Assembly: GCA_963681505.1 (NCBI GenBank)
Contig: OY811973.1
Span: forward strand, 4,037,573 to 4,101,572
Direction: 5' to 3'
Source of the DNA: Eunapius fragilis
Lineage: Eukaryota > Porifera > Demospongiae > Spongillida > Spongillidae
Length of the DNA stretch: 64,000 bases
Positions 14,413-40,819 of this stretch are shown in pieces (the first letter of the stretch is position 1; every line of letters begins with the position of its first letter). Under the pieces are notes generated by a model that was not told the DNA's origin, made no database searches, and saw only the letters and a list, made by a program, of their open reading frames with translations. The position numbers and the translations under genes were made by a program.

Positions 14413-15394
14413 GAAATGGCTCAAGAAGTCTTTTTTAGAATGAAGGTAAGTAAGGAAGATGCTAAAATGATTGAAATGCATACGAAACTTCAGAGATAAT
14501 GTACAGAATGGTACAATCAAAGACGAGGGCGTTTGACTGCATCAGTTTTTCATGATGTTTTCACGCATAAAGAGGATGCAAGTGCTTTGGTTTCAAGGTA
14601 TTTGAAACCAAATGACGTATCTACACTACCAGCTATCAAGTGGGGTGTTGCTAATGAAAGTACAGCAAGAGATGCATACGCTCAACAGATGTCTCACACA
14701 CATGTGAGCTTTGAGTGTAGAATATCTGGACTTGTAGTGCATCCATTATATCCCTGTCTTGGTGCTAGTCCTGATGGTGTTACATGCTGTGGTTGTTGCG
14801 GTGAAGGTATATGTGAAATCAAATGTCCATTCTCAATCAAGGACGTTGATCCTAATAATTGCAAAGGAAAACCAAAGTTCTTTCTGAAAGAACATGGATT
14901 GAACACAACACACAAATACTACACACAAGTTCAAGGCCAACTTGCAATATGTGACAAACAATTCTGTGACTTTGTTGTATGGACAGCAAAAGGATTATTT
15001 ATTCAACGAATATACAGAGATAAGCCTTTTTGGGAAAAGGTTTCCCTAAAGCTGTCAGAGTTTTATGTGAAGCACTTTCTGCCAAAAGCAATAGAAGAAA
15101 GTTCGCTTTTTGTTGGGGCTGAAAAATTTTGTTTTTGTCACGTTACTGAGCATGGCGAAATGGTATTTTGTGACAACCCAAATGCCCTATTGGATGGTAC
15201 CATTTTTCATGTGTGGGACTGCAATTCCCACCTACGGGTACATGGCACTGTTCTAAATGTGATGGAACATTGTAATGTACATGTATATGTGCAAAATTGT
15301 AATCACATGATGTATGCATGTTTACAATGTATGCAACTGTATCAATTCACATGAAGTATATGTATACAATGTACCTCAATTAAAGGACAGACAG

Positions 15395-16937
15395 TTACAC
15401 TAAACAAGGATGGAGATTAGATAATGCAGCACATGTAATGAGTATTTTGTCAATTGTGGCATAATTAACATCAGTAGCTGTCTTGAGTAGAGAAATAGGT
15501 AGCGTTGAACTTAACAGACCATAATTCTTCAACCTCCCAATGGCACGTTCCACATGGATGCGTATTCGTGATAGCTGTCTTGAGGTTTCTACTTCTGCCT
15601 GGGACAATTGATCCTTGCCTTTTGTAAATGATGGAATTGCAAGAGATGCACCATGTAGTGCAAGTTCATCAGTAATATCAAATCCCCTATCTGCAACAAC
15701 CAAGTCACCTGGAAGAAGTTTTCGATAAAATCCACATTCATTTGTAAGGTGCTTATCTGATACCCTACCACCCCAACATTTTGACAGGAAAATAATAGTT
15801 CCCGTTGGGTTGATTGCCAAGAAGAACTTAACTGTATTGTGTCCTTTGTATGAGGAATATGTTTGAGCTCTGGCAATTAGTGATGTTGGCCGTTGGATAA
15901 AAATTTCAGAGCAATCAATAATTCACACTGATCTTGAGAATCCGGGCTTGAAACATTTAGGCAATGTTTGACGAATGACTTCCCTATCTGGCCAATGAAT
16001 TAAACACTGCAATTCTCTTGACAAGAGATCTATCCAATAATGAAAAACTCGACTAACTTGAGAAACACTAACGTCGAAGCGATATGCCAAGTCCTGATGT
16101 TTGAAAGCATGTCGGAGCTTCATTAACACCATCAACAATTGCCGGTTAGGTGTCATCAATGAGCAAGCATTCTTCTTTTCAGCAAGAAACACAGGGGTAA
16201 GTATGTCACAAAGGTTGTGAAATGCAGCATATGATGGAAGCCCAGTGTAGTATTTTATATGTTCATCATCTGCATTTATATCCAATGAAAAAAGGGTCAT
16301 AGGTACACTTTCAGCATCTGGAACACCTTTCTCTTCTAAAATAACAGAATCTACTACACCAAACAGTGTGCTCAATTTGAAATACTTCTTTCCTTCTTGC
16401 AATTGGTTTTGTAGCAGTACGTGCATGTACTTCTACATCTTGGACAGTGTATTCACCCGTTTGCGTCTCAGCATCCAGGGAAGCTGGAAAACCTGTTTGA
16501 GTGGCATGGTCAATCATAGGCGGCCTAGCGCCAGTTTGTGTCCAATTATCAACCAAAAGAACGAAACGACGTACATTTACAACTGCAACATCCCTTTTGA
16601 CATGCCTTTCAAATCGTTTCAATTGTTTGTCCGCTTTATCAGTTGCATTAAACTTAGTAGGTACGAAATCAGGGTGGAGTACATCGCGGGATGGTTTGCC
16701 TGGATGTGTTTAGTAAGACTAGTAAATAACACAGGAGCATTTATTTCTTTAGTACTTACCATGTACGAAATGTAGACAGCAAACTCTAGTTGATGCATTC
16801 GGTAGCCAATCTTTCCTTCCAATGGCGGCAATCCATAGTTTTCTTTGCTTCGAATCTGTTGGGAAGCGAAACAGCTTCATTCCTGTAGATTTTTTGTACC
16901 TCAAAGTACATCCGAACGCGCAGCAACTAGACGGCAT
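15395..16937 (-). pseudogene. THAP-domain DDE_Tnp_4-type transposase, broken
   Basis: Exon 1 (16760-16937) encodes a THAP zinc finger: CCAFGC near the start, then LFRFPTD, W and CCLHF, the C2CH pattern. An intron (GTAAGT...CCAG, 16700-16759) joins it in frame to KPSRDVLHPDFVPTK. After a polar linker with three TQTG-like motifs, the helix-turn-helix and DDE part follow: TPNRQLLMVLMKLR, then IIDCSE (first D), VADRGFD (second D) and IHVERAIGRLKN (E). Breaks seen: a frame change near 16425 and an in-frame TGA near 15943, just before the first catalytic Asp, where relatives keep coding; TGA is one transition from CGA. It is convergent with the nuclease gene in the same transposon. Confidence 0.88.
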
Positions 16938-20040: not shown

Positions 20041-23000
20041 CTATGAAAGTGACAATGAGGAACTATCCCCCTCCTGAAGGGAACAGCCACATCTTAAGAG
20101 GAGGGCTCGGGCATTGGCTCGCACAAGAGTCAAATTAAGGCGGCCATACAAGCTGCAGACAACCTTGGACTTGGGGGAGTTGGTCCTTGTGGCAAGGTAT
20201 GATGCAAGCCGTGAAAAAGCTTGCATCGCTTCGTTGCCCCAGGCTCCATATGACTCGGCCACAAGGGGAATACATGTCCACCCTAGCTCGGAACACTTGG
20301 CATCATTGGCAGAGTGCTTCCTTAGCTCAGCAGCAACCGCTGCTGACCCTGCTGTGCGACCCGCTTCAGAGAAAATAGTAGGGTTAAGCGGAGACACCAC
20401 AGTAAGGTCAAAGGCAGCAGGCTTGCCACAGAGCCAATTGGAAGCTAGGATGTCAGCAGGGCGTGTGTTCCGAAGCTCATGTCCTAGTCCACTACCGGCC
20501 TCTGCCTTGGCGCTGATGCAGGCATGATGGCAGGTTTGAAGCACTACATCCCTGAGCTTGTTGTGCCTGGATACAGCATCACCACCTCTCTTACATGTTA
20601 TTGCATGGTGACCTAGGGGATCCAAGGGATGTTCTGGACACAACGCACAGGGAGGTGAGCCAGGTGAGGTGTTTAGCCCCAGCCACCACTTGATGGCCAT
20701 TTGGTGCTCGTTGGGGTCTAAGCTTAGACCCAGGCCTGGAGATGGTACTACAGAGAGCCAAGCAGAGGCATGGGGAGAGGAGATAGACAGGAGACGAGCC
20801 TTGTCAGCCACAGAGCTCTGGGATAGAAGAGAGTTAAATTGAATGTTTTCTAATGCAGCTGATAGAGTGTGTTGTCGGCAAGGAGAAGATGCAATACTGT
20901 TGATATTAATTGCACTCTCAGGGGGAACACACCTATTGTAGGAATTGACCGCATCAGCCAGGAAATTATCTGATGGTGTGGCAAGGCCTGCAGTACTGAT
21001 GGAGGCGATAAAGGCTGCATTAGAGTGATGAGCTAGTGAACGAAGCCCCAGGCCACCTCTGCTTAAGCTCAACTGGGCCTGCATCCAAGAACTGTCAGTA
21101 GTGTCAATCGCTTGGCACTCTGTGAAGGTGCACCTAACCTGCTCATCAAAGGCATGCAACTCATCCAATGCCAGGGATGGGGGAGTGGAACGTGCAATAT
21201 GGACCAATTTGGTAAATCCACCACACATGCGTAGTAGAATGAGAGCAATCTGAGGATCACATGACCCGAGCTTAACCAGGGAGGATAGCAAAATGGAGGC
21301 AGCAGCACGTTTAGAGGCAATAAATGATGAACAAAATGCAACATCCCCTATGGGGGCTCCAAGGATGATGAGATTGGGAGTACAAGATTTGTTCATCTGA
21401 GAAGGGAATACACTGAGGTCACCTTGGCCAAAAAGCTCACATTTAGATGGATTTAGATGGAGCCCCAATGAGGGACCTAAATCTTGAAGTAGACATACAA
21501 CATGCTGGACAGAGGTAGATGGGCCGGCCACCACCCCATCATCCAGGTACCATGCATTGAAAAGTAAGTCTTGGCAACTTTCCTCCTTGGAGATGGAAAG
21601 GACCAGATGGTGCAGGACCAAGGCGAAGTAGAAGGGGCCTAGGGGATCCCCTTGCTGCACACCAGCCTCAGAAGTCAAAGTTCCCATAGAATGCCACAGG
21701 AAAGGGTGTTGGCCACAACACCATGTTGTCCATGGGAGGAGAAGGGGAAAATGTAGGGTGCATTGGTCAAGGAGGGACTGGCGAGACACTAGGTTGAAGG
21801 CATTTTTCATATCAACCTTCAAGCAGACAAATTCAGGGTCGTGCCAATGATTATCAAGACAACGTCTGAGGCCATGGATTACCTTCTCACATCCTTGGGG
21901 GAGAGCAACACCAAACTGAAAAGGTTGAAAGAAAGCAGAAGCATCTTCCTTAATCAAACTGCATAGACATTTGCTGGTGAGTCGGCGAAGTGATTCACCC
22001 ACTGCGATGGGCCTGATGTCCTGTGTACCTTTCCTTAAAGCAACTAAGCTGCCCCCGGCCATGTACTGGGAAATTGCAGCTGGGGCTTGTCCAGAGGCGA
22101 GGAGATTTATTATACCCCGAAGAAGGGAGCAGATGGAAGTAGGAACTGGAACTTCAGCCACATCAAGAAGGTGTTGGATGCGCAGACCTGTGGGGCCTGC
22201 TGCAGAGGCCTTGGGGAATGATCGAAGGATAGACAGGACATTAAAGTCTGGTGGTAAGATTGGAGAGGCCAATGGAAGAGGTGGGTGAGCAGGAGGTAGT
22301 GGGGGAGGACTCTTGGGGTGTTTGGCTGATAGCTGAGTCCATGTATCCTCAGTATTGGGAGCGAGACCTGAAGAGGTAAGGATCTGGCAAGCCTTTCCAA
22401 GAAGGCCGTCCTTGGCAAGAGAAATGGCTTCAGTGATCTTCTTTACATCCTCATCAAGGGGTGAAGACCAGGGGCCATGGTGTGACACATGCTGTTTGGT
22501 ACGAGCCCACAATGATGTAAACTGACCACACTCCCAGGCCTCACATAGCAGTTTGATGTCAGTTTGGTGGTGACGGCGACCACGGCATGGGGCAGAAGGA
22601 AGTACACATTTTGGTAGCATAAAAAGTTTGAGCCATGACTCCACATTGTTATTGTATAGAATGTTAGACAGTGTTGATGCAAGGGCACGCGCAAAAGCAT
22701 GCCTGAACTTGGACGGAATGAAACGAATTGTTGGGCACTTTTGGCTGAAGACTTCATCCAGAGTAGGTAGACTGTTAACGGATGGAGAAGGAAGGGTGGA
22801 AGGGCTGGGAAGCTGTGCATTGAAATTACCACAGCAACGTCTTTGGTGGGACAAAGACCGAGAAGAAGACACAAGTTGGCGGCAGCGTGGACAGATGAAG
22901 AGGCCTTGTGTACTAAGCCAAGAAGCAGGAACCTCACCTACAAGGATGCCATGCGCATGTTGTTGCATGTGCGAGTGCCACATCGAGGGAGCAATACGTG

Positions 23001-23619
23001 CTTGGCAACCCAGAACTGTGCAAGGTGATCTGCATGCTGCAATGTCTTGATTGAATGCCGATAAGGAAGGCTGCACGGAGGCAGCGAATGCGCAAGGGTC
23101 CTGGTCATTTGAAACAGGCGGGTCCTTTTGTCCGAGCACTGGTAGGTTAGATGACACAGGAAGTGGGTTGCCGCAATGAGGTGATGTTGATATGGGTTGA
23201 GGTGGATCGGAAATGAGGACTGGTGGTAAACTCAAATTTGCGGAGGATAATGATACCTGTAGCGATGGTGATGGCGGCTGAGGTGAAACACGTGTCTGCG
23301 GTTGAAGCGCTGAATATATAGGTGATTGCGACGACGGTTGTGAATATGATATCACGGGACTTGCAACTGTACCAGGACTTAAAGGTCGTGAGCAAACGCT
23401 AGTTGCTGATGTTGACTCGAGGTGCCTGGAAGGCGAAGGTGACAATGTGGCGCTCCGATTGGAGTTAGCACACCCTCCGCGCTTCATGGGCTGACAGTTT
23501 GTGCAGGATCTGTTCGCTTTCACACATACACAGGACTTACATCTAGCATTTATCCCATTACATGAGCAACACTTCGGCTTCCGAACCTCTGAATGCAGCA
23601 ACGTTGACGCTGACATCAT
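20041..23619 (-). CDS. Open 1192-aa ORF of an RLE-type non-LTR retrotransposon with N-terminal CXC-like cysteine cluster
   Basis: The only long uninterrupted transposon ORF in the window. Residues 17-50 form a CXC-like cluster (CCSC, CKSCVC, CTNC). Residues of about 50-190 are Ser/Pro-rich, and zinc-finger-like CTVLGC...H and FICPRCRQL...RC segments lie near 195-270. The reverse transcriptase has motif A KVDMKNAFN (about 600), B GVQQGDPLGP and C AWYLDDG (about 690). A CALC...HHAITC knuckle (about 990-1010) and RPADIL...AFDLTV (about 1053-1075) resemble the CCHC plus restriction-like endonuclease of R2/Hero/NeSL-type elements. The ATG follows an A-rich run. It nicks target DNA and reverse-transcribes its RNA in family members. 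Whether this copy is active is unknown. Confidence 0.85.
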   Translation of the reverse strand: MMSASTLLHSEVRKPKCCSCNGINARCKSCVCVKANRSCTNCQPMKRGGCANSNRSATLSPSPSRHLESTSATSVCSRPLSPGTVASPVISYSQPSSQSPIYSALQPQTRVSPQPPSPSLQVSLSSANLSLPPVLISDPPQPISTSPHCGNPLPVSSNLPVLGQKDPPVSNDQDPCAFAASVQPSLSAFNQDIAACRSPCTVLGCQARIAPSMWHSHMQQHAHGILVGEVPASWLSTQGLFICPRCRQLVSSSRSLSHQRRCCGNFNAQLPSPSTLPSPSVNSLPTLDEVFSQKCPTIRFIPSKFRHAFARALASTLSNILYNNNVESWLKLFMLPKCVLPSAPCRGRRHHQTDIKLLCEAWECGQFTSLWARTKQHVSHHGPWSSPLDEDVKKITEAISLAKDGLLGKACQILTSSGLAPNTEDTWTQLSAKHPKSPPPLPPAHPPLPLASPILPPDFNVLSILRSFPKASAAGPTGLRIQHLLDVAEVPVPTSICSLLRGIINLLASGQAPAAISQYMAGGSLVALRKGTQDIRPIAVGESLRRLTSKCLCSLIKEDASAFFQPFQFGVALPQGCEKVIHGLRRCLDNHWHDPEFVCLKVDMKNAFNLVSRQSLLDQCTLHFPLLLPWTTWCCGQHPFLWHSMGTLTSEAGVQQGDPLGPFYFALVLHHLVLSISKEESCQDLLFNAWYLDDGVVAGPSTSVQHVVCLLQDLGPSLGLHLNPSKCELFGQGDLSVFPSQMNKSCTPNLIILGAPIGDVAFCSSFIASKRAAASILLSSLVKLGSCDPQIALILLRMCGGFTKLVHIARSTPPSLALDELHAFDEQVRCTFTECQAIDTTDSSWMQAQLSLSRGGLGLRSLAHHSNAAFIASISTAGLATPSDNFLADAVNSYNRCVPPESAININSIASSPCRQHTLSAALENIQFNSLLSQSSVADKARLLSISSPHASAWLSVVPSPGLGLSLDPNEHQMAIKWWLGLNTSPGSPPCALCPEHPLDPLGHHAITCKRGGDAVSRHNKLRDVVLQTCHHACISAKAEAGSGLGHELRNTRPADILASNWLCGKPAAFDLTVVSPLNPTIFSEAGRTAGSAAVAAELRKHSANDAKCSELGWTCIPLVAESYGAWGNEAMQAFSRLASYLATRTNSPKSKVVCSLYGRLNLTLVRANARALLLRCGCSLQEGDSSSLSLS

Positions 23620-23639
23620 TTTTTTTTTTAATTTTCAAA

Positions 23640-23839: not shown

Positions 23840-24495
23840 ATAGGAATACAATATTTAGGAGGAGAAATAACATGCATGAATTATTAATAACTCATGCTAC
23901 AGTTCAATAAACTTTAAGATGGGAGCCACCTGGAAAGGATTGCTGTCGCATTTGCCCTCACCAGATGCAAGTTGAGCCTGCTATACAGGTCAGACAGCAC
24001 AACCGACTTTGGTTTGCCCGATATGATGGCAAGACGGGAGGCAAGCATCTTAAACGAGTCCATGGCTTCCTTTCCCCAAGCACCATAGGACTCCGTGACC
24101 AGAGGTACACAATACCAGCCCAAAGCATTGCATTTGGGGTCATTCTCATTATGCTTTCGCTCTTCAGTGGACAAGGCGGCTGCCCCAGCTGACAATCCCG
24201 CTACTGAAACAATTTTAGGGTTTAGCGGTGATGTCACTGAAATATCAAAGGCAGCTGGTTTGCCAAGGGCCCAGTTGGGTAGCAAAATGTCTGCAGGGCG
24301 TGAATGGTCATGCTCAGATGTAAGATTGCTACCCATCTCCACCTTTACGCTCAAGTGGGCTCTACGGCAAGTCTCCGCCAACACATTGCGCAGCTGGTTG
24401 TGTCGGGTGACTACGTCTCCTCCTTTTTTGCACGTTGTAGCATGATGACCAAGGGGATCTAATGCACTGTTTGGGCATAGGGCACAGTTAGTAGT
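23840..24495 (-). pseudogene. 5'-truncated RLE-type LINE copy, C-terminal part
   Basis: Minus-strand frame from about 24490 reads CALCPNSALDPLGHHATTC, SRPADILLPNW, KPAAFDISVTSPLNP and LYSRLNLHLVRANATAIL, ending at 23914. It is the same architecture as the 1192-aa ORF (knuckle plus RLE), with roughly similar spacing. Only the last 190 codons and about 75 bp of 3' UTR remain. The last ~150 bp are almost identical to the 3' end of the copy at 27225-28965. Confidence 0.8.
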
Positions 24496-24496
24496 A

Positions 24497-24529
<33 letters not shown>

Positions 24530-24530
24530 T
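24497..24530. repeat. (TAA)n microsatellite
   Basis: About eleven AAT units at the junction between two opposite-strand LINE fragments. Confidence 0.85.
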
Positions 24531-24620
24531 GTGGCTGAAATTTATGGCCGGTTGAATGTGGTCCTGGTTCGGTCCATTGCTAGAGCCATCCTGGCCAGGG
24601 AGCTTCCACCCTCCTAACTT
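24531..24620 (+). pseudogene. 3'-end scrap of an RLE-type LINE (plus strand)
   Basis: VAEIYGRLNVVLVRSIARAI and a stop match the C terminus of the 1192-aa ORF family, here on the opposite strand from its neighbours. Confidence 0.65.
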
Positions 24621-24682
24621 GCTATTAGTAGTTTAATTGTGTATGCATTTTAATAATAATATATAATAAGTTTGATTCCCTG

Positions 24683-27114
24683 ATGAAACATGGAAGGACG
24701 CGGGATGCTATCAGGTTATTATCTTCATCATCTAATGGAAAGGTATTACAACTTCATGACAGTATGTTTGAGATGACATCAACTGGTGAACAGATATCCC
24801 GTTCTGTGAGAGACATCCTATCAGATAAACACCCTAAAGGAATACCACCTGTTTATTCTTCTCTTCTCCAAGACAATCCTGCCCCAGTCAACCCCATACT
24901 TTTTGACCAACTCACAGCGCAGTCTATATATCAGGCTGCTTTACACGCTGAGGGTTCGTCTGGTCTTTCTGGATTAGACGCATATGCATGGAGGCGTCTT
25001 TGCTCATCATACTCCTCTGCTTCACAAGACCTCTGTTCAGCACTTGCCTCTGTTGGCAAACGTTTATGCACAGCTGACATTCCCTCAGAGTATCTCAGTG
25101 CTTTTGTGGCATGTCGACTGGTACCTTTGGATAAAAACCCAGGTGTGCGGCCAATAGCAATAGGAGAACTACCACGTCGAATCATTTCTAAGGCAGTATT
25201 GAGCATTATTGGTCAGGATATTGCTGATGCAACTTGTCCCCTACAGTTGTGTGCAGGCCTTGTGGGAGGTTGTGAGGCTGCAATACATGCTATACAGACG
25301 CTTTTCTCAAACACTTCCACAGAAGGTATTTTGTTAGTTGATGCCAACAACGCTTTTAATGTGCTAAACCGACAAGCTGCACTACACAACATCAGTGTTC
25401 TCTGTCCTCCATTTTTCCAGATCCTCCAAAATACCTATCGCACCCCGATAAGGGTTGTCATCCCAGGTAATGGTGAAATATCTTCTTCTGAAGGAACATC
25501 TCAGGGGGATCCCTTGGCCATGGGTATGTATGCACTGGGAGTTATACCCTTAATACGGACCCTGAATACAAAATGCCCTCAAGTTAATCAGGTGTGGTAT
25601 GCAGATGATGCATCTGGTGCAGGGTCATGTGCTGATTTGAGAGTATGGTGGGATGCTCTGTGTTCGGCTGGTCCTAATTTTGGATACCATCCAAATCCCT
25701 CAAAAACATTTTTTGTCACCAAACCTGAGCATGCTGAGAAGGCCAAACAATTATTTGCTGGCACTGATGTTTCTATTTGTGCTGGAAGGCGTTGTCTTGG
25801 GGCGGCCATTGGCTCTAAGTCCTTCACTGAAGAGTATGTCAGAAACAAAGTATGCACCTGGGTTGAGGAAGTTAAGAGTCTGGCAAGTATTGCTGCCACA
25901 CACCCGCATTCAGCATACAGTGCATTCACCCATGGTCTCTCCAGTCGGTGGACCTTTGTCTCAAGGACAATGTCGGACATACAACACCTACTAGTTCCTT
26001 TGGAATATGCAATTCATCAATTTCTCTTACCAGCTTTAACAGGTCGTCCTTCATGCTCCAGTCTGGAACGTAGCTATCTTGCCCTACCAGTTAAACTAGG
26101 GGGACTGGGCATATCTAACCCCATTGAGGCATCCTCTCCTTCTTTTCTTGCTTCGGTAAAACTAACTGCCCCCTTGCTGACATGATCATGTCAAAAGGAA
26201 CCGAGACTCACCTAGATTACAACTTACTTCAATCCCTGAAGAGAGATATCAGCTCGGAAAATCATAAATTACTCCAACAAAAAGCAGAAGGCATATACAA
26301 GCTACTATCTCCGTCGTTGCAACGCTGCTTTGATCAGGCCTGCGAAAAAGGTTCGTCCTCTTGGTTATCTGCCCTTCCCATTGCAGATCATGGCTTCCAT
26401 CTGAATAAAGGAGAGTTTCGTGATGCTTTGTGTCTGAGATACGACTGGACGCTTACTAATGTCCCTCAACATTGCAGTTGTGGAAAACAGTTCTCTGTTG
26501 ACCATGCCATGACTTGCCATCTTGGTGGTTTCCTAACTGTCAGGCACAATGACATTAGAGATCTTACAGCCTCATTGCTGACGGAAGTTTGTTATAATGT
26601 TGCAACAGAGCCACAACTACAACCTCTTAATGGAGAAACCTTTTCTTACCTCACAGCCAACACAGATGCTGAGGCCAGGGCAGATATCAGAGCTAGAGGA
26701 TTTTGGTCCAAAAGCCAAGATGCATATTTTGATGTAAGGGTTTTTCACCCTAATGCACCTAGCTACGTTTCAAAATCTCTTTCCGCTCTTTTTCGTACCC
26801 ATGAACAAACCAAGAAAAGAGAATATGGACAACGCATTCGAGATGTTGAACATGGTGTTTTCACACCCCTAGTTTTTTCCACTTCGGGTGCAATGGGGAG
26901 AGAAGCCACCACTTTTTACAAACGGTTAGCTGACCTACTATCTGAAAAACAAGACAAAGCATATTCCCTCATTATGGGCTGGCTGAGATGTCGTCTGTCT
27001 TTTGCCATACTGCGCAGTGCTATCATGTGCCTACGAGGAAGCAGGTCTTCCTACCACCACCCAATCTATTGTGTTCTGACCCTAGCAGTGCATGAGGGCA
27101 GAGTCTCTTCATAG
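24683..27114 (+). pseudogene. Reverse transcriptase of a second RLE-like LINE family, split by one frame change
   Basis: Frame 1 (24683-26185) has motif A LLVDANNAFNVLNR (about residue 221), motif B SSEGTSQGDPLAMG and motif C QVWYADDASGAG (about 305). It ends ...LLT with a TGA overlapping the ATG of frame 2 (ATGA at 26182-26185). Frame 2 (26182-27114) continues the same protein: CSCGKQFSVDHAMTC, RADIRARGFW, AYFDVRVFHPNAPS and RCRLSFAILRSAIMCLRG. Relatives read through this point as one protein, so a single indel is the simplest reading. The 5' end is truncated, as the first ATG lies after an AT-rich run. The tail of this family is also seen at 18770-19354. Confidence 0.82.
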
Positions 27115-27224
27115 ACTGTATCTATTTCTATGGTTATTGTACTTGGTAATTATGTTGTTATCATTGTGTTTGTTGATTGTATATATAATGTATTTTGATA
27201 AGAATTACACTCATGCACAATAAT

Positions 27225-28965
27225 ATAGGAATACAATATTTAGGAGGAGAAACAACATGCATGAATTATTAAAAAATCATGCTACAGTTCAATAAACTTT
27301 AAGATGGGAGCCACCTGGAAAGGATTGCTGTCGCATTTGCCCTCACCAGATGCAAGTTGAGCCTGCTATACAGGTCTTACAGCACAACTGACTTTGGTTT
27401 AGCTTCCCATAAATATCTACCAAAGTCTTTGACTTCTGGTATCCTATGCCAAAGGACAGGCGCGAGGCCAAATGGGAAAATGCTTGCCTGGCTTCAAGAC
27501 CCCAGTTCCCATAGCTCTCCACAGCAAGAGGGATACATTTCCAACCAAGGGTATCACACTTGGGGTCATTTGCCTGGTGTTTCCTCTGCTCTGCCAGTAG
27601 TGCAGCTGTTCCTGCAGTAACGCTTGCTTCCCGAAGTGACACAGGTGTAAGAGGAGACGTCACAGTTACATCAAAAGCGGCAGAGATTCCACTTATCCAG
27701 TTGTTCACTAGGGCATCCGCAGGACGAGACCTAGAAAGGTCAGGGGTAAGTGCACTACCTGCCTCGATCCTCACTCCAAGGTTTGCCTTGTGGCAAAAAT
27801 CTACAAAGACATCTCGCAGCTGGTTGTGTCGGAGAACCACATCACCACCTCGTCTGCATGACAAGGCATGATGCCCCAGGGGGTCCAAAGCTATTTCAGG
27901 GCATAGCAGACAGCAGGAGGCTGTTGTTGTTTCTAAACCCAGCCACCACGAAATAGCTGTGCGGAATTCACTAGGGTCAAGATGCAGGCCAGGCTCACCC
28001 GAAGGAAGGACTGAAACCCATGAAGTGGCCAAGGAAGCAGAGATAGTGAGGAGGCAAGCTTTGTTTGCTGGAGAAGCTGAGTCGTACAAACTATCGTAAG
28101 TCGAGCTATCCAGCGTATGGGAGAGAGATCTCTGTGATGGAGGAGACTCAATGGCAGACTCTGGAGATATGGCATCTGAGGTAGAGACTAAGCTATTGAA
28201 AGTATTAACCGCATGAATCAGATGATGGTTATTAGCAGTGGCAAAACCAGATGAACAAAAGGATGCAATGAAGGCAGCACTCGAGTGGTGAGAGAGTGAG
28301 TGAAGGCCGAAACTTCCAAACCTTAGGTTCAGTTGAGATTGGCACCAGGCGGCCTCATGGAGATCTAAAGATAAGCACTTAGAGAAGCAACTCCTTAAAT
28401 CCAAGTCAAGTATCTTCAGAGAATCAGCAGCCACGCTAGGGGGGGGGGGGGGGGGGGGGGGTGATCTGGCTAAATGCACCATCTTACAAAAACCACTGCA
28501 AAGCCGTAGCAAGTTAAAGGCCACCTGTGGGTCAACATCTGAAACATCTTCCAACTTAGATAGCAACTTTGTGTATTCAGCACGCTTCGCGGCAAAGAAC
28601 CCAGTGCAGTAAAGATAGTCCCCAATAGGAGTACCAAGAATGTCTAGGTCTGGTACATGTGAAGCTTTCATAGCAGGAGGGAACATGGAAATATTGCTAC
28701 GGCAAAATAGTTCACATTTGGATAAATTGATGAAAATACCCAGTGATGGACCAATGTCTTCAATTATGGAGAGCGCCCGCAGAACAGCTTGTCTGGGGCC
28801 AGCCAAACACCCCATCATCCAAGTACCATGCCTGAAGGATGAGACGAAGGCAGTCATCATCTGCATCGATGGCGGCAATGACCTTGTGTAGAAGCAAAGC
28901 GAATAACAAAGGGTCTAATGGATCTCCCTGCTGCACACCTGCCTCAGAAGTGAGATGTCCTAGTT
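27225..28965 (-). pseudogene. RLE-type LINE copy with chimeric 3' end
   Basis: Begins (minus) inside the RT with GVQQGDPLDPLLFALLLH and WYLDDG, then a one-base frame break near 28810. The long frame 28878-27343 carries the CLLC...HHALSC knuckle and RPADALVNNW...AAFDVTVTSPL. Near codon 490 of that frame the sequence switches at a shared AAACCAAAGTC to the 3' end of the 23840-24495 family, so KLNQS is followed by that family's tail in another frame. A 20-odd G run (28440-28461) encodes a poly-Pro insert not seen in relatives. The copy is 5'-truncated and abuts the 3' end of the APE-type LINE. Confidence 0.8.
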
Positions 28966-31937: not shown

Positions 31938-32594
31938 CTATGGGTTAGTACTTGGACTGGACACACTTTGTTGAGAAGAGTTGGAGTCAACTACTCGTCG
32001 TTCCTTAATTGTCCACTGTGAAACAGGGCCCCGCCTATCAATGTAGTATTCCAGACCAGTTTCATTTTTCTTTTTACGCACTATGTCATAAAGGCCACGA
32101 ATATGAGTGCGTTCAGCAGCTGCAGTATGGCTGGGGCGCACAAAAACCTTTTTGAATTTAACAGACTCTTTCAGAATCGTGGCCTTGCGTAGAACCACAG
32201 ACCTCTGAGCAGCGTTGGCAACACAGACCTTGACTAAACGCGGATTGACATTGGATCCCCCGTTTGGCTCTTTCCCTAGTTGAAAGGCATCAATTAGAAA
32301 AACACTATCTTCGCTCAAGGAATCAAAAATTTCTTTCACAAGGGCCTTATCTGTAACAACATTGCCAGTTTCCTGAACTCCAGAAAGAATTATGCACATC
32401 TTTTCATCATGGGCCGAGATAGTCTCCTTTACCGCCTTGTCAGCATCCACACCTATATTACATACTGCTCCACATTGTGCAGGCAAAGACCCTCCAAAAC
32501 CGCCTCAGTCTTTGCCACAAACTCCACAAATTTCTGCTCAAGGTTAGAAACCCTGAGTGGCAAGTTCTTCAGTGAGATTTCACAACTCAGACAA
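31938..32594 (-). pseudogene. APE-type LINE ORF1, 3' portion
   Basis: Frame 32486-31938 has SVFLIDAFQLGK, VNPRLVKVCVANAAQRSVVL and FVRPSHTAAAERTHIRGLYD, the nucleic-acid-binding ORF1 fold of CR1/L2-type LINEs. The preceding segment (32594-32480) in another frame gives CLSCEISLKNLPLRVSNLEQ and KFVEF, a coiled-coil lead-in. At 32594 the ORF is cut by the 8.2-kb transposon and resumes at 40820. Confidence 0.8.
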
Positions 32595-32599
32595 CCCAG

Positions 32600-32810
32600 T
32601 GAAAAATTCTTACGTATCTTGGCCAGGATCCTGGCCAAGATTGCAAGATTTATCCAAGATGCAACCCAAGATACCAAGGTGTAACTCAGGATAGCCAAGA
32701 TGCCAAGCCGCAACCCAAGATGGCAAGATACAAACCAAGATGAGTAGGCCAAGATGGCAAGATATAATCAAGTAGCCAAGATGTCAAGATGCAATCTATG
32801 ATGTCAAGCT
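32600..32810. repeat. Left subterminal CCAAGAT/ATCTTGG repeats
   Basis: TATCTTGGCC, TCCTGGCCAAGATTGC, ATCCAAGATGC, CCCAAGAT, GCCAAGATG and GGCAAGAT recur about twelve times in 210 bp next to the element end. The right end (40590-40810) carries the same word. Confidence 0.7.
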
Positions 32811-35354
32811 GATAAACATATAATAAGATAGCTCAGTATTGTATCCATTTTAGTAAACAGCATATGTAAATATGATTTTCATAGCAAGATGTGCATAAAT
32901 TATTGTTAGGTATATGCTAATGATAGATAATATTAATGTTCATCAGCACATATATATTACAACTGAAAATGACATTTTGCACGCAATACATGTGTAAGAT
33001 ATTAATGATGTTCATATATATTGGGCTGAAATATAATTACATCAGTAGGTGAGTATTTGATAGGTACATGAACACACTTTCTTAAAATTGAAATAACTGG
33101 AGCAGCCACTACATTATTTGTGAGTGATATTTTCTTAACTACAACAAAATACGAATTCAGTTGCATATTTCTGAAGGACTTGAGGTCATGTATTGTTGGT
33201 GACACATTGTCCAGGATTCCTTGAGATACCCGTTCGTAAACATCAATTATTGCTATATGATCTGCATTCTTCAATACACAAAATTTTCTTATTGAACCCA
33301 ACATCAATGTGTCATGATACATGATTTCACAAACCGAACTGTCACGTGCCAATTTGGTCTTTTTAGCTTGATATGCAGTTCCATTTATCATATATGATAA
33401 ATAAGTAGGTAGAACCTTGTCAGAAACCCTGTAATCTGAATTGGATAAAATATTTGCTTCATCTGTTAAAAGCTGTGTGTTTCTGCACTTTCCCAGGGGT
33501 CCATTATTGATATTTACACTTTGATTAAAAAATGCAACAGTACGTGCACTTTCCACAGGTAATGCATTTATGTGAGCTGTCATTGAGTAGTTCATTGTGA
33601 TGCCACGAATCAAGCTGGGTATAAAATTCCTACACCCATGCCTATGTTGCTTTATGTGCCCATTCATATTTTCAAAACCAAAGCAGGAGTATGCCCACAG
33701 AGGTCCTAACATTTGCACAAATCTGGAAAGATGAACAACACTGTGCAAGTTTGGTGACAGCATCTCTTCAGGATACAGTTGTGGCACAAGATTGTAAAAT
33801 AGTACCAACATTTCATCAGCAGCTCTGATGTCTTCAGAAGTTATACGTGTTCCAAGTAAAATGTGCATAGCCGTAACTAATAGAGCAAAGTGGTGAACAT
33901 AGTCAGGAGGCAAAATTTTGGTAAGAATTGGAAGGCTATAATACAACAACCAAACTTTATACTCTGATGCCTTCCAATAGGCTTGAGCTGTTCCAGTTTC
34001 TCTCGGGGATCGCCTAAACTCGTGTGGTGGTTTAATTCTAAGCAGATACTTGTTTATGATGTTGACTACTTTTCCAAGATAGAATCTAAGTTCAGCATAC
34101 TTTGGATTGATCCAACAACATAAAAATGCTTTCACCACACCTTCTAGAATAGCATGCATATAGTCAATAGGTATATGGTATATTGAAATGAAGGGTGCCA
34201 ATAGAGATATTCCTTTTACTCCAAACACAGGCCTTCCCAACATAATTGCTTTTTTCGCCCACACAGCTATTTCAAAAGGTGTGCGAATTTTGTGTGGTTC
34301 AATTGGAAGGTAGAGGTGTCGGTGACACTTATGTATACCCCTGTCTGTACAATAAGGACATCCATAATAACCGTTGTATTGTGTTATATTTAATGCTGTC
34401 ACTGGAAAATCAAAAACTCCTGCTATAAGTTTAGCTTTTACAACCTTTGTGCCATCAGGGGTTGATATTTCTATACCCTTAGTTTCAAGCTGTTGTATTT
34501 TTGAAAGTGTTGGTGGAAGAAGGATATCCATCGGTGGTTTGCATGGTCCAAGCCATAAAGCACCTACCATAGTATTTTCTGCATTCATTCGAGTTAATGG
34601 TGGAAGTGATGAAGCAAAGGCCAAAGGGTCATACCTGACGAAAGTATTGGTGAAAGACAATGCATTAATTATTATGATGAACAGCAAACCCTTCATACTG
34701 ATTTGTGATCATAAATTGAATCTTAATGTGTGTGTGTAGATGTATAGAATGAGGAATCTTTGTAGAAAAATTAAATTGTGCCAAGTTTATATTATTTCAA
34801 CATATCTACTTACCCTTGTACAAATGAACACTAACCTGATGACTTGAAAACAGGAACTCCATCGCAACACATAATAAGTCCTGTATGCTCTGGCACTGAA
34901 AGAAACTGCCCTTCTTTCCGAAGTGCTGCTGCTTCCATCCGAAATGTCACCAATGATGCCTTCATTAGTATTGTGAGTTTTATAGAAGTACTGAGATATT
35001 TCATTCCACTTTTCTGCATGAAATTAAACACACTGCCATGTATTTTAAAACTTACATGCTTGCTTACCTGAATAAATTATTCTCAAATGCCTTTCAAACG
35101 GAAGAACTGCAAAGTAACATGTCTGTGCTTTGTTAACCCTACAATGCTGCTCTGAACACTTATTTAAACCTTCCAAATTTTGCATACATAGTGAACAATA
35201 CTTCTGGATGGTATAATCATATTCACACATGAATTGCTTCCATAGCTGGTAAGGTGTTTTTGCACATTGATTGATATCTGAACAGTGGATTGATACCAAT
35301 TCTAACAATTTACTGGTAGCACATTTGCTTAAGTGGTTTGTAACTGAAAAATAG

Positions 35355-35920
35355 TTGCATGCTAGTCAGCTAGCTTCCTTACTAAGTGATGCACCTAAGT
35401 ATAGGGCACTTCCACTTATACTACTTCTGCAGACATCATCTTCCATAATCTCAAACTGTTCATTGTCACTGTCATCACTATCACCCTCTATGCCCTTGCT
35501 CTGTTCACCTACATCATCACTGTCACCCTCTATACCATTTCTCTGTTCATTATCACTGACATCATCATCTTCTATGCTGTCCTCACTTACATCATTACTA
35601 TCTCCTTCTACACCCTTGCTCTGTTCATTATCACTGACATCATCATCATCCTCTGTGCTGTCTTCGTTCTGTTCATTGTGACCAACATCATTACTATCAC
35701 CCTCAAACCCTCATCATCACCATCATCCTCTATGCACTTACTCTGTTCATTGTCACTGACATAATAACTATTATTGCTCTGTTCACTGACATCATCACTA
35801 TTACCTTTATCTTTACTGGTGAAATGTTCACTATCATTGCTGCCCCCTTGACCATCTCCATTATCGTTATAGTATTCACCTTCCTGTTTCAAGTCTGCTA
35901 TTTTCAATGCAACCTGCAAT
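35355..35920 (-). repeat. Acidic coding repeat in the transposase gene
   Basis: Tandem units of about 40-60 bp encode VSDNEQSKGIEGDSDD-like peptides on the minus strand, rich in Asp, Glu, Ser and Asn. The plus-strand Ser-rich open frame is its shadow. A frame shift lies near 35715. Confidence 0.7.
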
Positions 35921-36559
35921 ACTTGAAGAAGCCGTACTTTCCATTAAAGATTCATCATGACCTTCCAAATCTGGAATGAATGAAAGCTAATGAACACATA
36001 AAAAATGACTATAAGTAACAATTTAAATAAAAGCCATGGCACAGAGGAAGGTGAAAATGCATTCCTCCCAGCTCCATGTAGAGATATCATCAACAACATT
36101 TGTAGATGCAATATGGGAGCCAACAAAGCGTGCACAACATAACTATATTTGGTGGGCATACTTACATGCTGCTCCTCTTACGGTTGATAAACTACTTGCA
36201 TCCACATTTGCATGCAGCTCTGAAAAATAGATATCAGTTCATAATCAATGTTAGATTACATACTAAAACAAGCATACTAGTCTTAGCATTCCACCAGCGA
36301 AGTGTTCGTCCTGGAACAGGGACTTTTGGGTCATGGCAATACTTCCTCCGAACACCTTTGCTTGCTACAGTGCAGCACATGAATGGGTATGCTCATAAAA
36401 TGCACATTGATACACATGCAGTTAAATATGCATGGGAGAAAATAAAAAAAGTATCATTTGATTGATAACGTACCCTCATGCTCTTGGATATACATCGGAA
36501 TAGGAATGCTGGGATTCCAAAGGTATTCTCGATATCTCTTTCGAACAGGCACACCATCT

Positions 36560-37580
36560 ACATGTAAGTAAGTTGAGTTGCAATGCAAAGGTATACACAA
36601 CATAAAAAGGTTCCCAAGATCAATGAAAACATTATTAACTGTATAAACTTTAAGTTTAATTGCTACGAAATATTGTACTTATGTGTGAAGAGAAAAGACC
36701 AAAAATGAACTGGAAGCCAAGAATATTATATGATTAAATATATAGGGGAAGTGACAACTTAACACATTTAATTTGTTCGCACTGATTGTCCAGGTGCTAA
36801 ATTACGCAGGCCCATAGGCAGCATTAGAAAAGTGGTCAGGTTGGTAATAGGACTGAAAGAAATAGCAGCTAGGGGGGCTGGGGGATTGCTGTAAGCACCC
36901 CCAGCGAGGTCTGGGGTGGAACCCCAGAAGCTAACGCATTTCCGTGAATCTGAGAGGCAGTTTTGGCAGCAAAATTGCTATGTAGCAATGAAATCTTCCC
37001 CTGCATGAAGTAATGAATCAAAGACCCGAACAACACTCTACCTTTAATGCCCCTCTGTATTTAAAAAATAAATAAATATATATATTGATGCTTACTAAAT
37101 AATACACCAAACGCTCATTTAGGGAAGTTGTACTTAATGAGGTGATTAGGGTTTTCTCCAACATCTAAAAGAATCTCAGATGACGATTGAAAGTTATAGC
37201 GTCGATTGAACAGTCATCCATGAGGCGCTCACGTTGACTACAATACTGAATACTAAAATCTATAACGATATAAATGTGACTGGTTTTTAAAATTAGAAAC
37301 AAAAAATAGCAGCGGATTGCAATTTCATATACATGTAGCTATTCAATGGCCAGATCTAGAACTAAACAACCATGAAAACTGTTTAGCTGATAACCTGTGA
37401 ATATAATTATTATATAATTATCCATACCGTGACCGGGTATAGTATACACACAATTGTATATCGTTTTCAGCCGTTTCTGTCGGGGTGGACCTTATATTAA
37501 GTTTAGCTTGGGCAAAAAGTGGTCAGGCTATAGCCCGAATGCCTGACCGGCTGCCACGGCCTGTTACGTACGATAACACA
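36560..37580 (-). other. Intron region of the transposase gene, nothing else seen
   Basis: Between presumed exon 2 (36474-36557) and exon 1 (37585-37615). AT-rich, with no domain-bearing frame and no clear repeat. Confidence 0.45.
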
Positions 37581-37687
37581 TCACCTTCACTTTCATCTGC
37601 TGCAGCCGGATCCATGAAAAAGTAGGTATGCCGATCAGAATGCAGTGGAATCCTCAGGCGCTGTTACTTTTGATGGGCCGTAAAGTA

Positions 37688-37910
37688 ATACACACCCAGG
37701 AAAGTTCAAATTTGTATCATAACTCATATTTGTATCATAGCAAAAAACATATTTGAAACATCGATCTTAGCAAGCAGATATGTATCAAATATGTTTTCTA
37801 ATATGTTACAAATACACATATCTGATACAATTATGTATACGCTTGCGGAGATGAATGTTTCAAATATGTATTACGTATTTGATACAAAATTAACTTTCCT
37901 GGTGGTGTAT
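37688..37910. mobile_element. MITE between the divergent transposon genes
   Basis: Ends ATACACACCCAGGAAAGTT and AACTTTCCTGGTGGTGTAT are inverted repeats with about two mismatches. The interior carries TTTGTATCA/TGATACAAA words in both orientations. It sits 73 bp upstream of the transposase ATG and 170 bp upstream of the BEN-gene ATG, so it lies in their shared promoter region. Confidence 0.7.
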
Positions 37911-38079
37911 ATTTAGAGCACACACCTTAATTTAATTACTGTAGCGTCACGTGCTAAAAGAGTTGGTCTCTTTTGTTCAACGGCGGGCCACTTTGTTTTC
38001 AGACGGGGCGGGCGCACTCTTCAATTTACGTGCTTTCTAGCGTGCACGTGATATTGCAGGAGAACTTTGCGCACTGGCT

Positions 38080-40222
38080 ATGCCTCCTAAGAGACCAGCG
38101 CGATTACCGAAAAGGTACGACGACCTTGTTAGCACCCATGTGGAAGAAGCCACAAAGAGTGAGTTCCGGCAGCTTACAAAAATGTGGCAATGTGATGCAT
38201 ATATGAGGCATGGTTTTTGTAGTTTAACCAAAAATTAAAAAAAAAACTGCCTGCATGGGATTCATGCATGCATGTGTAGCGCGGGAATAGCGTAAAAGCC
38301 ATATATATATATACGATTTAGTCCTATGGCCAGTTTTGTATACACTTGTCTATTTTCGACACAGCGCTAGCATTTGCCATTGTCGCGGGGGGCCGGTGTT
38401 TGGGAAGGATGATAGACTAGAAACTCTTACCTGTGGGTGAGAGTGCGTCCTCTGAAGATATAAACAGTGGTAGGCGTTATTTACGTACGCTGAACTACCT
38501 TTTCAGAGTGGTGCAATGTGTTGTGCATTGAAGATAATCGAACGTACAGATGCCTGTCGAGTACGCTATCTATTGAAGATAAAGGGGTTGTTGAAGAAGA
38601 CGATCTGATACCAGGAGCAGGGAAAAACAAAGGGAAACTGTATACAGTAGTTCTACAGGAAGTGGATGGTAAGCATATGGACTAATTTCTTGCACTGACC
38701 TGTACAGGTAACCGTTTAAAAGAATTTTCAAGCATGAAAAAAAAAGCCTTATTGTAATATTTATCGGTAACACAAAATCAATTTTTGCAATTACTGCATG
38801 CATTAAGTTGTCCTAGATTTGTCCAGGTTGATTACAAAAAAAATTGGTGGCTGTGATTGTAAAGATTTTTGGGACCTTTTTATGTGGATCAATGCTGCGA
38901 TATCATACCTATATATGAAATTATGAATCATTTTGAAATAGGATATTTTGAATACATGTTCCTAATAAATGGTTCACATATATATATACAATATATGTTT
39001 GCATGGTATAATGCCTTCTTATCCAAAAGGGAAGCCTAAGCCTGCTAATAAGCATTTGTTTAGTGAAGATTCTGATTCAGCAGAGGAACATGCTAAGGAA
39101 AAGGTACTCATTATGCAATATAGCTTGTGCAATTAAATTCATTTTTCATAATGTGGTGATGTTTATTTTCTTTTTCTTGTAGACATCACAGCCACAAGCA
39201 GAAATTCATAGTCAGCAGGTAAGGAGACACATGTAGTATTTTTAATCTGATATTTTTACAATCTGTGTTCAGAGATCAGTTGATCAAGATCAGAGCACCT
39301 TAGCAGCTACTAAATGTGATGTAAGATAAATTAAATCACATTTTTGGTAATCCACATGTGAATCATGACATTGACAATGACTGGCGGTCAGAGCAAACAA
39401 TGGGAAAACATAACCAGCTGTCTGAAGGTGAGTATTTTGCTTAATTTATTTTCATTCATAAATGTTTTTACACAGCAAAGTATTGATGTACTCAATAAAA
39501 ATGTAGTGGCATTGAATAGTTCCGTGCTCACATTGATCACTACTATGGGAAGGACAGACCGTGACCATCATCAATTGATGGAAAAAGTCAGTGACGGTGG
39601 CGTCCCAAATACAGAAGAAGCAGGCAAAGTTGCTATTGCAGATGTGAAAAGGCCCCAGATAACATCACCACCACCTGAAAGTGAAGAGAAATTTATAATG
39701 GTATTATCTGTTTCTATAATTTTTGAGACATAACTTAATAAATGTTTATTTCAATTTTAGGAAAATGGTGTTGATATAAGAAACATCAAGGCTCATGACA
39801 TATTCAAATATGCACTAGTCCTAATGGATGCTCTCCTCACAGAAGAAGATATGTCAACTTCATGCTTTGTTCAGTCAGAGAGGGGAACAGCAAGTGGCAA
39901 ACACCCGTTAGAACCTTCAAAAGTGAAACTCCTTGAAGGTAAATTCAATGTTTTTTTTTACTACCACCGTTTCTGTTGTGCTAATTTCATTGCTGTACAC
40001 CTTTTAAATACAAGTGGTGATATGATGATGCAATTGATTTATATATGTACAGAATGTCTGTATAGGAGGTATGGAAAGAATGCAGTTGAAGAGAACCTTA
40101 ATGCCATAAGACAGAGGTGCAACCAAAAGTGCCGAGATAAAAAAAAAGAAAAAGAAAAAGAAAGCAAAAGGCATTTGTTGACGAAGGGAGGTAGTGGTAC
40201 TTCCTCACAAACCATGTCCTAA
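38080..40222 (+). CDS. Nine-exon BEN-domain protein gene carried by the transposon
   Basis: Nine exons: 38080-38158, 38507-38668, 39030-39103, 39183-39218, 39273-39320, 39392-39427, 39476-39700, 39761-39938 and 40053-40222. All introns are GT-AG, phase is kept at every junction and no stop occurs (1008 nt, 335 aa). The N terminus is basic (MPPKRPARLPKRYDDLV). Residues of about 85-150 are polar. The C terminus matches a BEN domain: IKAHDIFKYALVLMDALLTE, CFVQSERG, HPLEPSKVKLLEECLYRRYG and IRQRCNQKCRD. BEN domains bind DNA and chromatin. The ATG at 38080 gives the only frame matching exon 2. In position and probable role it parallels TNPA of plant CACTA elements; that is inference. Confidence 0.75.
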
Positions 40223-40232
40223 CTTGCTACCC

Positions 40233-40490
40233 AGCTCAACAACTCTGTTTACTCTGCAGCTCATCAAACTGTTTACCCAGCAGCTCATATCAACTGTTTA
40301 GCCAGCTCATCAACTGTTTACCAGGTCATCAACTGTTTAGCCAGCTCATCAACTGTTTACCCTGCAGCTCATCAACTGTTTAGCCAGCTCATCAACTGTT
40401 TAGCCAGCTCATCAACTGTTTAGCCAGCTCATCAACTGTTTAGCCAGCTCATCAACTGTTTACCAGGTCATCAAGTGTTACCCATGTTTA
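40233..40490. repeat. Minisatellite, about 20-bp unit
   Basis: CAGCTCATCAACTGTTTA and variants (GGTCATC, CTGCAGCTCATC) repeat about a dozen times directly after the BEN-gene stop, probably in its 3' UTR. Confidence 0.85.
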
Positions 40491-40589
40491 TCCAGCTCAT
40501 ACACTGTACATGTATATCATTTTGATTGTAGCTATATAAATGTAAACGTTATATGCATGTACATGAAGGCAAGAATGCACTGCAAGATG

Positions 40590-40810
40590 AAACCAGGATT
40601 GAAGCCAAGAATCTTGGCCAAGAGACAAGGATTTTCCGACAAAGATCTGGGCAGGATCTTGGGCCTCTTGGCCAAGGTTAACCCCCCCAAGACCCCAGGA
40701 TCTTGGCCAAGAGAGTGCCCCCAAGATCCCAAGATCTTGGAGCCTCTTGGCCAAGATTGCTGGCCCAAGATCCCAAGATTACGATGCAAGATCTTGGCCA
40801 AGATGTTTCC
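40590..40810. repeat. Right subterminal ATCTTGGCCAAGA repeats
   Basis: GAATCTTGGCCAAGAG, GATCTTGGGCC, AAGATCCCAAGATCTTGG and GCAAGATCTTGGCCAAGATG recur about ten times up to the element's right end. Several are palindromic CCAAGATCTTGG-type words. Confidence 0.75.
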
Positions 40811-40819
40811 GCTGGGCAA

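Follow-up and report, generated by a model that had tools for sequence, protein, structure and literature searches.

Transposition of the maize En/Spm elements, which belong to the CACTA superfamily, requires both tnpA and tnpD; TNPA is the protein that recognises the subterminal repeats, and it has an additional action on the methylated promoter (PMC1636069; PMC2613891). For the animal TRC elements, the ends of which begin with CCC (Aedes, CCCAGTCAAC; Tribolium, CCCTAGTAG...), the paper describing SmTRC1 reports no conserved counterpart of TNPA and leaves its role as a hypothesis (PMC1636069). Here we describe an 8222-bp TNP2-type transposon from the sponge Eunapius fragilis, located in a stretch of 64,000 nucleotides (hereafter the window; assembly GCA_963681505.1, contig OY811973.1, positions 4,037,573 to 4,101,572, forward strand), that carries a BEN-domain gene divergent from its transposase gene. 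On the basis of the sequence comparisons presented below, we consider it probable that this branch of the animal CACTA/TRC elements is a two-gene unit, in which the BEN protein would be the transposase's own TNPA-like, repeat-binding partner. In the open-licence literature, as judged from listings and the beginnings of abstracts, no CACTA element was found described as carrying a BEN gene.

The 219-Mb genome (24 contigs) was searched with both ends and both genes of the window element, which yielded 11 near-full-length copies including that of the window itself (L009–L019, L009 being the window copy). All 11 have CCCAG...CTGGG ends and both genes, whole or damaged, and 10 are flanked by an exact 3-bp duplication (CAA, AAA, AAC, GAG, GTG, CCT, ATT, AAG, TTA, TCC); copy L013 has 4-bp TGTG on both flanks in place of 3 bp. 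The borders that the initial annotation had set by a CAA duplication are exact to the nucleotide, the same termini recurring in the 10 further copies. Its claim that removal of the element restores the first open reading frame (ORF1) of a long interspersed nuclear element (LINE) also holds: when the flanks are joined minus one CAA, the LINE-type ORF1 frame crosses the junction and runs for 73 codons, as compared to 46 for the left flank alone. The interrupted LINE copy is itself degraded. With its Transposase_21 domain, its CCC-type short terminal inverted repeat, a 2–3 bp duplication and subterminal repeat clusters, the element shows the characters of the CACTA/TRC superfamily, and we classify it on the first three of these characters as an animal TRC/CACTA-type transposon. 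It resembles SmTRC1 and relatives in the Transposase_21 core and the CCC ends (here CCCAGTGAAA; CCCTAGCAAA in the sponge element L030, see below), but differs from them in its 3-bp rather than 2-bp target duplication and in the extra divergent BEN gene. A 3-bp duplication is also reported for soybean Tgmt* (PMC2613891). With maize En/Spm and plant CACTA elements it shares the TNP2 transposase and the clusters of subterminal repeats; in Spm, however, alternative splicing of a single transcription unit yields both proteins (PMC1636069), whereas here there are two divergent genes, one encoding a BEN protein.

The pairing of the two genes extends well beyond the copies of the window element (family 1). 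A query with the family-1 transposase core gave 120 matches (117 of 488 candidates scored), which were merged by hand into 98 listed TNP2 places; all counts of pairing are among these 98, and a place was considered paired if a divergent BEN locus lies within 12 kb. The family-1 BEN query alone detected pairing at 41 places (random placing: mean 0.18, maximum 2), and addition of BEN queries from two diverged families (L027 and L029) increased this to 54 (random placing: mean 0.5, maximum 4). Since random placing disregards the clustering of transposons, orientation served as a control within the data: a BEN locus is divergent at 54 places and otherwise arranged at 5, of which 3 have a divergent one as well. 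Pairing was found at 12 of 13 places with a transposase identity of at least 95%, 9 of 14 at 56–70%, 17 of 34 at 44–54%, 16 of 27 at 34–43% and 0 of 10 below 30%. The sole BEN-less place in the highest class (L020) is a partial copy that matches the element over 32594–35171 only. When the count is restricted to stop-free matches located in open frames of 550 amino acids or longer, 20 out of 21 places with at least 34% identity are paired (sister copies included; by our reading about six families, five with BEN), while none of the 9 below 30% identity, which represent more distant families, is paired. BEN therefore marks one branch and not every TNP2 element. Families with transposases approximately 40% identical still have the pair in the same orientation, with the BEN intron at the same position and the BEN reading frame preserved. 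The co-occurrence of the two genes anticipated from the single copy in the window, with BEN as a standing partner of the TNP2 transposase, is therefore borne out by the other copies and by the diverged families. The idea that TNP2 elements landed in or beside host BEN genes and so created the association is highly improbable; TNP2 and BEN loci are indeed both repetitive in this genome, but the preference for the divergent arrangement speaks against it, and in family 1, where the termini and target duplications enclose BEN in 11 copies, it is contradicted. For the same reason a host BEN gene that simply adjoins an insertion was ruled out.

Further remnants and relatives were encountered in these searches. 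Partial copies include parts of both genes (L021), the right part (L022) and the left end only (L023), and L024 is a diverged BEN gene (pieces 67–91% identical) with no transposase match within the 9 kb examined. A related right-end remnant (approximately 84% identity over 96–99 bp) occurs three times at a spacing of approximately 6.65 kb (L025 and L026; C21:1355994, 1362650, 1369285). At C5:6717298–6732600 a TNP2/BEN pair of another family, with a transposase 45–50% identical in two pieces, directly adjoins family-1 copy L012. TNP2-like open frames of 824–1002 amino acids with 27–29% identity occur at C1:5984596, C23:183711, C16:3363261 and other places, with no BEN locus found nearby. A 217-bp nested insertion, the ends of which are inverted repeats (ACACCCAGGAAAGTT/AACTTTCCTGG...), lies between the two genes of the window copy. 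It is missing from the other 10 full copies, their alignments breaking at 37689–37690/37908–37910, and it probably entered after the window copy itself had inserted.

The BEN gene of the window was described in the initial annotation as a stop-free gene of nine exons with phase kept, and this is what the sequence holds: the predicted exons comprise 335 codons without a stop and every intron border is GT/AG. Within the family the predicted protein measures 335–338 amino acids, and GT/AG is kept at all eight predicted introns in 10 of the 11 copies, L013 having one TT donor. The predicted intron that splits the BEN domain (before exon 9) lies at the same place in family 1, L027, L028 and L029. 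In a Pfam search (BEN, PF10523; curated cut-off 23.2 bits) the partners from the diverged families L027, L028 and L029, joined over this predicted intron, score 32.4, 29.4 and 23.9 bits, i.e., above the cut-off, whereas the window protein (18.8 bits, E = 0.0019) and the L011/L012-type protein (23.0 bits, E = 9.3e-5) stay under it. The similarity to BEN domains noted in the initial annotation is thus recovered by a profile search, over the cut-off in three relatives and marginally below it in family 1. A six-frame scan of the genome with the same model listed three matches, none inside these elements, probably because the intron divides the domain. A five-sequence profile that included two family-1 variants retrieved BANP (E = 8.1e-4) and BEND6 (8.1e-3) among PDB sequences and, weakly, BEND3 (0.43), with the unrelated CasC at 0.48. 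From these sequence comparisons the similarity to BEN is real, though weak in the window copy. The N-terminal segment encoded by exon 2 (L012 version) is predicted to adopt a small beta fold (predicted local distance difference test score, pLDDT, of 87.6). Its assignment to the Tudor fold was rejected: the nearest PDB neighbours are Tudor domains, with Foldseek E values of 0.43 or worse, a hint at most.

The transposase gene has seven predicted exons and, when open, 1000 codons. The 1000-amino-acid spliced reading of copy L014 scores 47.6 bits against PF02992 (cut-off 28.6), and the damaged open reading frame of the window reaches 26.2 bits, under the cut-off. That the transposase is broken in the window copy was seen correctly at the outset; compared to the other copies, 33 bp are missing in five places and there is one in-frame stop. 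Across the family the transposase is open in 5 of 11 copies (L010, L011, L014, L015, L016), BEN likewise in 5 of 11 (L009, L011, L012, L014, L016), and both are open in three (L011, L014, L016). The intact BEN gene of the window was consequently not regarded as special; it is one outcome among several.

The subterminal repeats noted at both ends of the element are far more concentrated than shuffled sequence would predict. Of its 30 CCAAGA/TCTTGG sites, 26 fall within 230 bp of an element end and 4 in the interior; the two ends hold 9 and 17 sites, while mononucleotide shuffles gave means of 0.12 and 0.11 and maxima of 3 and 2. We also counted perfect 10-bp palindromes in eight stretches from family 1, L027, L029, L030 and L032 and compared these with 300 dinucleotide shuffles. 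Four stretches exceeded every shuffle: the BEN side of family 1 (7; mean 0.3, maximum 3), the BEN side of L027 (7; mean 0.5, maximum 5), an upstream array in L030 (57; mean 4.4, maximum 12) and an end of L032 (4; mean 0.2, maximum 2). The palindromic cores are TCTTGGCCAAGA and CAAGATCTTG in family 1, AAGATCTT in L027, TCTTATAAGA in L030 and CAAGATCTTG in L032, whereas L029 has CATGATCATG/CATGCATG and 18 CATG (shuffle mean 6.6, maximum 12). The cores vary by family yet overlap, AAGA/TCTT half-sites occurring in family 1, L027, L030 and L032, a pattern that was picked post hoc. Palindromic sites are also the known targets of host BEN proteins: BANP is reported to bind the palindrome ATCTCGCGAGAT and NACC1 CATG sites (PMC11472053), and the BEN domain of Insv binds palindromic TCCAATTGGA as a homodimer (PMC6911014). 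BANP, BEND6, NACC1 and Insv are, however, cellular genes, whereas the BEN gene described here is transposon-borne.

By analogy with plant CACTA elements, in which a second DNA-binding protein serves the subterminal repeats, the BEN protein would occupy that position here. The TNP2 transposase would cut and paste at the CCC-type ends, and the divergently transcribed BEN protein would be the element's site-specific DNA-binding partner, most likely binding as a dimer to the repeats within approximately 230 bp of each end, many of which are palindromic on the BEN side. It may thereby bring the ends together and/or control the two promoters of the element, as TNPA does in maize Spm. This anatomy matches the maize division of labour, with a conserved transposase for the CCC ends and a putative BEN-type partner for variable, partly palindromic repeats. 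The main rival is a role in anti-silencing, comparable to that of VANC in the VANDAL elements of Arabidopsis, in which BEN would bind the repeats of its own element against silencing chromatin, outside the excision complex. VANDALs are Mutator-like elements, not CACTA. Like the sponge elements they combine a DNA-binding-type accessory protein with repeated motifs that vary between related elements: VANC is transposon-encoded and sequence-specific, and its targets are often tandem repeats that differ between related elements, although it has DUF1985 and DUF287 and no BEN domain (PMC5735166). Partly differing cores between families, the 71-bp tandem repeats that extend over approximately 2.4 kb upstream of where BEN presumably starts in L030, and the predicted beta fold of the N-terminal segment, with its insignificant Tudor matches, would all suit such a role. 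The family-1 sites are nearly all subterminal, unlike the VANC21 sites, which are spread across introns and upstream regions (PMC5735166). We therefore regard anti-silencing as a possible but clearly less probable explanation than a partner of the transposase. Since TNPA joins promoter reactivation with a requirement for transposition (PMC1636069), the two models may be combined.

Several observations weigh against a BEN protein that partners the transposase. In four of the eight stretches tested the palindromes do not exceed every shuffle: the transposase side of family 1 (1; mean 0.2, maximum 2) and the partial BEN-side stretch of L029 (4; mean 0.9, maximum 5) are within the shuffles, the BEN side of L030 (6; mean 2.0, maximum 6) is not above them, and the partial BEN-side stretch of L032 has none (mean 0.1, maximum 2). 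Because just half of the stretches exceed every shuffle, our confidence in the partner role is moderate. A divergent BEN locus was not found at 44 of the 98 listed TNP2 places; one of these, C9:2716402, is the single unpaired place among the 21 with long open frames; its frame measures 585 amino acids, and the next 8 kb gave chance-level matches only to seven BEN-gene queries. Conversely, at least 158 BEN loci were counted, and at 104 of them none of the listed TNP2 places is adjacent; three of these that were read (L030, L034, L032) contain at most one weak transposase remnant. Among four families, L028 has its nearest BEN relative in L027 (0.55) and its nearest transposase relative in family 1 (0.56). 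Within family 1, BEN dN/dS (the ratio of non-synonymous to synonymous substitution rates) is 0.61–1.06 in the 11 listed pairs with the window copy or an older copy, based on few changes. Finally, an 8-bp deletion in BEN exon 1 is common to L015, L017 and L019, which implies that elements have spread without a BEN gene of their own; no in-phase donor that would rescue it by splicing was seen by eye.

These observations bear on how long and in what manner the BEN gene has been maintained. Copy L014 and the window copy differ by 2 synonymous and 8 non-synonymous changes in BEN and by 10 and 17 in the transposase. In the same 11 pairs, several of which involve broken copies and one of which has no synonymous BEN change, the transposase dN/dS is 0.38–0.90. 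The suggestion in the initial annotation that BEN is under separate selection is not upheld by these within-family ratios, nor by the frameshift shared by three copies. Between four families BEN dN is 0.40–0.83 with dS from 1.7 to saturated, and transposase dN is 0.37–0.81 with dS from 2.1 to saturated; judged by these substitutions, both genes are retained as proteins in the long term. This bears on a further alternative, i.e., that an ancestral element took up a BEN gene from its host on a single occasion, the gene being carried along since then as a passenger without a role in transposition. It would fit the unclear constraint on BEN within the family and the multiplication of copies with a shared BEN frameshift and of elements whose BEN exon carries a common stop (L030, L034). 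A passenger is expected to be lost, however, and instead the features of the pair listed above persist between families with distant transposases and between-family dN is well below dS, which renders this alternative improbable. For the preferred reading, a partner of the transposase, the BEN protein would probably act in trans, given the multiplication of copies in which a gene is broken.

The BEN loci without a transposase may be understood in a similar way. L030 (C5:6746271–6752643) is an element of 6373 bp with ends CCCTAGC.../...GCTAGGG, for which an exact 3-bp duplication was not found (left TGG, right GGG). Its BEN-gene exons share an in-frame stop with those of its relative L034, and neither has a transposase match. 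In L032, where BEN exons are present, transposase exon 2 is weakly matched (41% over 29 amino acids, E = 0.009) near an end ...GCTGGG. Inferred from three places, these loci look like deletion derivatives mobilised in trans. The idea that such BEN-only elements signal selection on BEN in cis was rejected, L030 and L034 carrying the same stop in the BEN exons. The tandem array of L030 (2712–5175, about C5:6750010–6752475) consists of 71-bp repeats with the palindrome TTCTTATAAGAA. Approximately 17 BEN loci show an identity to the L027 query similar to that of L030 (51–58%), with a stop in 15 of the matches. Past the element ends, G tracts are seen in L027 near 6155 (CCTGGGTGGGG...) and in L030 near 5345 (GCTAGGGGGG...).

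A broader proposition is that a whole animal CACTA/TRC lineage uses BEN partners that co-diversify with palindromic cores (TCTTGGCCAAGA, AAGATCTT, TCTTATAAGA, CATGATCATG; some overlap), and that some animal BEN factors (BANP-like) descend from them; at present we consider this doubtful. For a co-phylogeny of BEN and transposase, four families are too few.

In addition to the element described here (Table 1), the window contains other probable mobile elements. A YqaJ exonuclease frame (14500–15354, + strand; 64.5 bits) adjoins a DDE_Tnp_4 transposase frame (15395–15922, − strand; 161 bits), and these neighbours (14500–15922) are likely another two-gene DNA transposon. An open frame of 1197 amino acids at 20041–23634 (− strand; RVT_1, 62 bits; Cys-rich N-terminus) resembles, by eye, that of a retrotransposon without long terminal repeats, and further reverse transcriptase-like frames were seen by eye at 23914–28914.

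Table 1. Features of the TNP2/BEN element; positions are those of the window.
Feature	Position	Strand	Remarks
Whole TNP2/BEN element	32595..40816		8222 bp; first bases CCCAGT, last GCTGGG; 11 near-full-length genome copies
Left target-site duplication	32592..32594		CAA (3 bp), pairs with right copy
Right target-site duplication	40817..40819		CAA, pairs with left copy
Transposase-side subterminal region	32595..32825		9 CCAAGA/TCTTGG sites; near-palindromes ATCTTGGCCAGGAT and ATCCTGGCCAAGAT
BEN-side subterminal region	40587..40816		17 CCAAGA/TCTTGG sites; perfect palindromes CTTGGCCAAG (5), CAAGATCTTG (2)
Transposase exon 7 (predicted)	33002..34634	-	Transposase_21 core; damaged here
Transposase exon 6 (predicted)	34836..35013	-	Damaged here
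Transposase exon 5 (predicted)	35068..35970	-	Acidic repeats, Cys-rich segment; damaged here
Transposase exon 4 (predicted)	36166..36219	-	
Transposase exon 3 (predicted)	36278..36364	-	
Transposase exon 2 (predicted)	36474..36557	-	
Transposase exon 1 (predicted)	37585..37615	-	Start MDPAAADESE
Nested short inverted-repeat insertion	37691..37907		217 bp, between the two genes; private to window copy
BEN exon 1 (predicted)	38080..38158	+	
BEN exon 2 (predicted)	38507..38668	+	N-terminal segment kept between families
BEN exon 3 (predicted)	39030..39103	+	
BEN exon 4 (predicted)	39183..39218	+	
BEN exon 5 (predicted)	39273..39320	+	
BEN exon 6 (predicted)	39392..39427	+	
BEN exon 7 (predicted)	39476..39700	+	
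BEN exon 8 (predicted)	39761..39938	+	BEN domain, first part
BEN exon 9 (predicted)	40053..40222	+	BEN domain, second part, and stop

The presence of a BEN gene beside the transposase in family after family provides a concrete candidate for the animal counterpart of TNPA. The question of the partner can thereby be addressed with a single protein, a single repeat and an assay of excision. If the proposed role is correct, BEN domains, which are known as chromatin factors, would be placed inside mobile elements.

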